DNA of 33,456 bases from Gammaproteobacteria bacterium. Its GTDB lineage: Bacteria > Pseudomonadota > Gammaproteobacteria > QZLD01. The notes below the pieces were generated by a model that ran no database searches, was not told where the DNA came from, and worked only from the letters and a program-made list of their open reading frames with translations. How positions within the stretch are numbered: the stretch's first letter is position 1; the number at the start of each line of letters is the position of its first letter. Position numbers and translations under genes: made by a program. This document shows, piece by piece, positions 20,427 to 20,444 of the stretch. The stretch is taken from NCBI GenBank assembly GCA_004796365.1, contig QZLE01000084.1, forward strand, positions 1-33,456, given 5' to 3'.

Positions 20427-20444
20427 TGTAAGAATTTTCTTACA
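20427..20444. promoter_or_regulatory. GacA upstream activating sequence (UAS)
   Basis: Perfect TGTAAG-AATTTT-CTTACA, matching the GacA consensus TGTAAG-N6-CTTACA, upstream of the sRNA-like element. Confidence 0.8.

Follow-up and report, generated by a model that had tools for sequence, protein, structure and literature searches.

GacA/UvrY-type upstream activating sequences are known from about −60 to −200 upstream of GGA-rich, CsrA-sequestering RNAs: In Pseudomonas aeruginosa, the boxes of rsmY and rsmZ are located at −75 and −196, respectively (PMC4950607), and the inverted repeat of Escherichia coli csrB lies at −183/−182 (PMC4682653). The locus described here is part of a window of 33,456 nucleotides (the whole stretch of DNA that was analysed) and resembles Pseudomonas rsmZ (PrrB/RsmZ, RF00166) in its exact box far upstream of the RNA (about −171 here, −196 in P. 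aeruginosa), in its RNA of approximately 115 nt with repeated GGA motifs and an intrinsic terminator, and in the presence of gacA-uvrC and csrA/rsmA in the genome. Pseudomonas rsmZ adjoins rpoS; the window RNA, in contrast, is located upstream of fleQ and scores below the Rfam cut-off. With E. coli csrB the locus shares an 18-bp inverted repeat of the same consensus centred far upstream (−183 in csrB), whereas the IHF site between repeat and promoter of csrB has no recognisable counterpart in the window linker, which differs in this respect from P. protegens rsmZ as well. csrB is also much longer than the window RNA and contains more GGA sites. The components of the locus are as follows:

20427..20444, minus strand (assigned to the minus-strand RNA gene): predicted GacA/UvrY-type upstream activating sequence, exact and palindromic TGTAAG-N6-CTTACA
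20277..20426, minus strand: linker from the box to the −10-like element, 150 bp, A+T-rich, no match to the IHF consensus WATCAANNNNTTR with up to one mismatch
20271..20276, minus strand: candidate −10 element CTATAC, putative RNA start at about 20264
20151..20264, minus strand: predicted RsmZ/CsrB-type small RNA, approximately 114 nt, nine GGA motifs, RF00166 score of 28 bits, folding z = −3.3
20154..20179, minus strand: strong intrinsic terminator GGAAAGGTGGCTTAGGCCACCTTTTT

The palindrome (TGTAAGAATTTTCTTACA, 20427-20444) agrees with TGTAAG-N6-CTTACA in both half sites without a mismatch, as an earlier note on this DNA had claimed, and its symmetry reaches 8-bp arms (TGTAAGAA/TTCTTACA); every other match in the window has at least two mismatches. 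According to a first-order Markov estimate, about 2e-5 exact matches are expected per 300 bp (0.15-0.21 per 2.77-Mb genome), so that a chance origin at this very spot is unlikely.

On the minus strand, positions 20245-20151 match the Rfam family PrrB_RsmZ (RF00166) with 28 bits (E of 0.008 in the window), which is the best RF00166 match of the host genome. Since this score stays below the gathering threshold of the covariance model (44 bits), the RNA is termed RsmZ-like rather than a member of RF00166. Its fold is more stable than those of shuffled sequences (z of −3.3), and it shows the sequence features of the CsrB/RsmZ type, i.e. multiple GGA motifs, some of them in possible hairpin loops, and an intrinsic terminator. 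Two CAGGAUG stretches (CUCCAGGAUGGAG and AAGCAGGAUGCUU) are flanked by complementary arms and could fold into hairpins whose loops contain GGA, which would be the typical appearance of CsrA sites; this evidence is suggestive only, as the minimum-energy fold does not place every GGA in a loop. The −10-like CTATAC at 20276-20271 (minus strand) suggests an RNA start at about 20264, and a full match to the consensus sigma-70 promoter is absent for this RNA on the minus strand. Measured from this start, the box centre lies at about −171, in agreement with the distance of approximately 170 bp given in the earlier note and within the range known for such sites; the box is thus of the far type, akin to those of rsmZ (−196) and csrB (−183). 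Other RF00166 candidates of the host genome (L012, L013) were mostly terminators beside coding sequence and were rejected. Positions 20051-20078 of the window contain a REP-like hairpin repeat (CTGGATACYGGCCTTCGCCRGTATGACG) that is dispersed in the host genome, where it occurs at 15 places with up to two mismatches (reversed pattern: 0).

The genome-wide scan covered the host assembly (2.77 Mb, 201 contigs, 83% complete) and revealed two exact boxes (none for the reversed pattern) and seven with up to one mismatch (four for the reversed pattern); over the host genome as a whole, box copies are therefore not strongly in excess. The picture changes if the boxes are examined for a following signature, defined as a GGA-rich stretch within 500 bp after the box on one strand that closes in an intrinsic terminator: It was present after three of the seven boxes, namely the window box and those of two sister loci.

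G000:C7:18677 onward, plus strand: sister RNA gene L006 with one-mismatch box, GGA-rich, intrinsic terminator
G000:C167, box at 8616, gene from 8633 downward, minus strand: sister RNA gene L010 with one-mismatch box, GGA-rich, intrinsic terminator

At random positions the combination of GGA-rich stretch and terminator was found in 0.5-1.9% of oriented cases, which translates into 0.07-0.27 cases expected among 14 orientations; the three observed correspond to P values of about 5e-5 to 2e-3. Among the 88 oriented two-mismatch sites of the host genome there was one marginal GGA/terminator case, which was counted as background. The scan for TGTAAGN6CTTACA that had been proposed earlier has thus added two near-perfect boxes, each with a single mismatch, in front of GGA-rich terminated RNAs, and its outcome favours the interpretation of the earlier note. 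In both sister loci the distance from the box to a CATAAT −10 element is exactly 44 bp, and the boxes lie at about −65. GGA occurs six times in either RNA and is unpaired in the predicted fold at all or almost all of these places. Neither sister RNA reached an Rfam cut-off (C7: CsrC with 25.8 bits versus 61). In their near layout the C7:18677 and C167:8616 loci resemble the rsmY/rsmX type (rsmY at −75), from which the window locus differs by its far layout; the near spacing of the sister loci and the far spacing of the window mirror rsmY (−75) versus rsmZ (−196) and csrB (−183). The window spacer (150 bp) exceeds that of the sister loci by 106 bp, which is close to ten helical turns and may be a coincidence.

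The second perfect box of the host genome (G000:C64:47198-47215; L005 1199-1216) is situated between an HU-like gene (265 bp off) and a small membrane-protein gene, and no GGA-rich RNA was found beside it. A similar picture emerged across the class: The 184 gammaproteobacterial genomes contained 27 exact boxes compared with 17 reversed-pattern controls (1.6 times), and among 24 inspected loci there were one clear RsmY (L130), one of CsrB-type appearance (L120) and two more plausible cases. L130, located in another genome, served as positive control (Rfam RsmY with 81.5 bits after an exact box). In L120 (G126:C11:141500, minus strand) an exact box is followed, approximately 190 bp on, by a CsrB-like stretch with more than 20 GGA motifs, which was not recognised by any Rfam family at an E of 1 or less. 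The box alone is a poor predictor of GGA-rich RNA genes. The statement of the earlier note that such boxes are rare elsewhere is only partly right, as perfect copies also occur in the genome and the class without a GGA-rich RNA and at 27 versus 17 controls. Its view of the box as independent support for the RNA is overstated: The box by itself is weak evidence, and its weight comes from the correct placement next to a GGA-rich RNA.

The same observations bear on the most durable alternative, namely that the RNA gene is real, that the box 171 bp off is a chance palindrome and that other factors drive the RNA. The exact boxes without GGA-rich RNAs at C64 and elsewhere in the class would fit this explanation, as would a long linker devoid of an IHF site; the low chance expectation (about 2e-5 per 300 bp), the near-perfect boxes of the two sister RNAs and a distance that fits rsmZ and csrB argue against it, and we regard it as distinctly unlikely. 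It is very improbable that the box serves, instead of the RNA or in both directions, the plus-strand lipoprotein gene at 20793: The site is indeed palindromic and lies 349 bp upstream of the start codon at 20793, with a weak plus-strand promoter-like match at 20557-20585, but this match is within chance (one found, 3.9 expected in shuffled sequences), the protein encoded from 20793 has no family match, and the arrangement of box and RNA is the canonical layout. It is barely credible that a different dimeric regulator binds the palindrome, or that the palindrome is a hairpin in RNA, given that 12 of 12 consensus bases fit the GacA box and that three loci pair the box with GGA-rich RNAs, even though 18-bp palindromes are used by many regulators and pairing of the 8-bp arms could give a hairpin (which, with its AU-rich stem and lacking a T-run, is not a terminator).

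The reading of 20427-20444 as a GacA box is further supported by the gene content of the host genome. It encodes one GacA/UvrY ortholog (G000:C74:15316-15948; NF007018, 316.5 bits, cut-off 280) with uvrC directly 3' of it, and a single copy of CsrA. Two neighbours of the RNA gene within the window are of relevance:

27854..30628, plus strand: BarA/GacS-like hybrid sensor kinase, NF008318 (BarA) with 768 bits, best family by far, curated cut-off 890
18278..19681, minus strand: FleQ-like sigma-54 flagellar regulator, PF06490 (FleQ) with 58 bits

The kinase gene, 7.4 kb away from the box, encodes the probable upstream kinase of the pathway, as judged from its sequence. The FleQ-like gene follows the RNA as the next gene downstream; it has the same orientation and lies 470 bp beyond the terminator. 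An integron integrase (TIGR02249, 468.8 bits, cut-off 265) is encoded at 31911-32930 of the window (minus strand), with the contig end about 500 bp upstream.

A search of 36 other genomes of the class revealed no convincing sequence relatives of the window locus, and the C7 RNA gene, used as a DNA query against relatives, gave short chance matches only. In the sole family relative, the contig with fleQ extends only about 117 bp beyond the coding match on its upstream side, and no clear GGA-rich terminated RNA was found at its boxes with up to one mismatch. Its RF00166 candidates (L181-L183) were rejected, being mostly terminators beside coding sequence with no box of up to two mismatches. At one site of this genome (L019/L140; G001:C172:500-517, minus strand), a one-mismatch box is followed by a GGA cluster with no terminator. 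Among 80 fleQ-like loci in named genomes, the gammaproteobacterial ones lacked the combination of a box with up to two mismatches and a GGA-rich RNA, and nothing specific was found in the literature on an rsm RNA adjoining fleQ.

Taken together, 20427-20444 is very probably a GacA box that acts on an RsmZ/CsrB-type minus-strand RNA, which would titrate CsrA alongside the two sister RNAs. For the window locus we infer the following course from the sequence and from the described systems: The phosphorylated GacA/UvrY ortholog would bind the palindrome and activate the promoter of the minus-strand RNA from afar (about −171); the transcript, with several GGA sites and closing at the intrinsic terminator, would titrate the single CsrA/RsmA and thereby relieve the repression of CsrA-bound mRNAs, together with the two sister RNAs, which have their boxes near the promoter (about −65). 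A more far-reaching reading, which we consider rather unlikely, is that this lineage, devoid of close sequenced relatives, possesses a three-RNA Gac/Rsm circuit of particular design, in which the box of two RNA genes keeps a constant spacing of 44 bp and that of the third gene, just upstream of fleQ and near gacS, is 150 bp off (about ten helical turns further) in the absence of an IHF site; GacA would then act at a distance independently of IHF, and there may be a coupling between this RNA gene and the expression of fleQ. That the window locus represents a new, ordinary example of a known control circuit is, in comparison, a well-supported inference.

All three GGA-rich RNAs of the host score under the Rfam cut-offs, and the box in combination with a GGA-rich terminated RNA, as opposed to the box alone, provides a usable finder for such genes. 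For the organism, the analysis documents a complete Gac/Rsm circuit in an uncultured gammaproteobacterium, comprising kinase, regulator, CsrA and three GGA-rich RNAs with GacA boxes.
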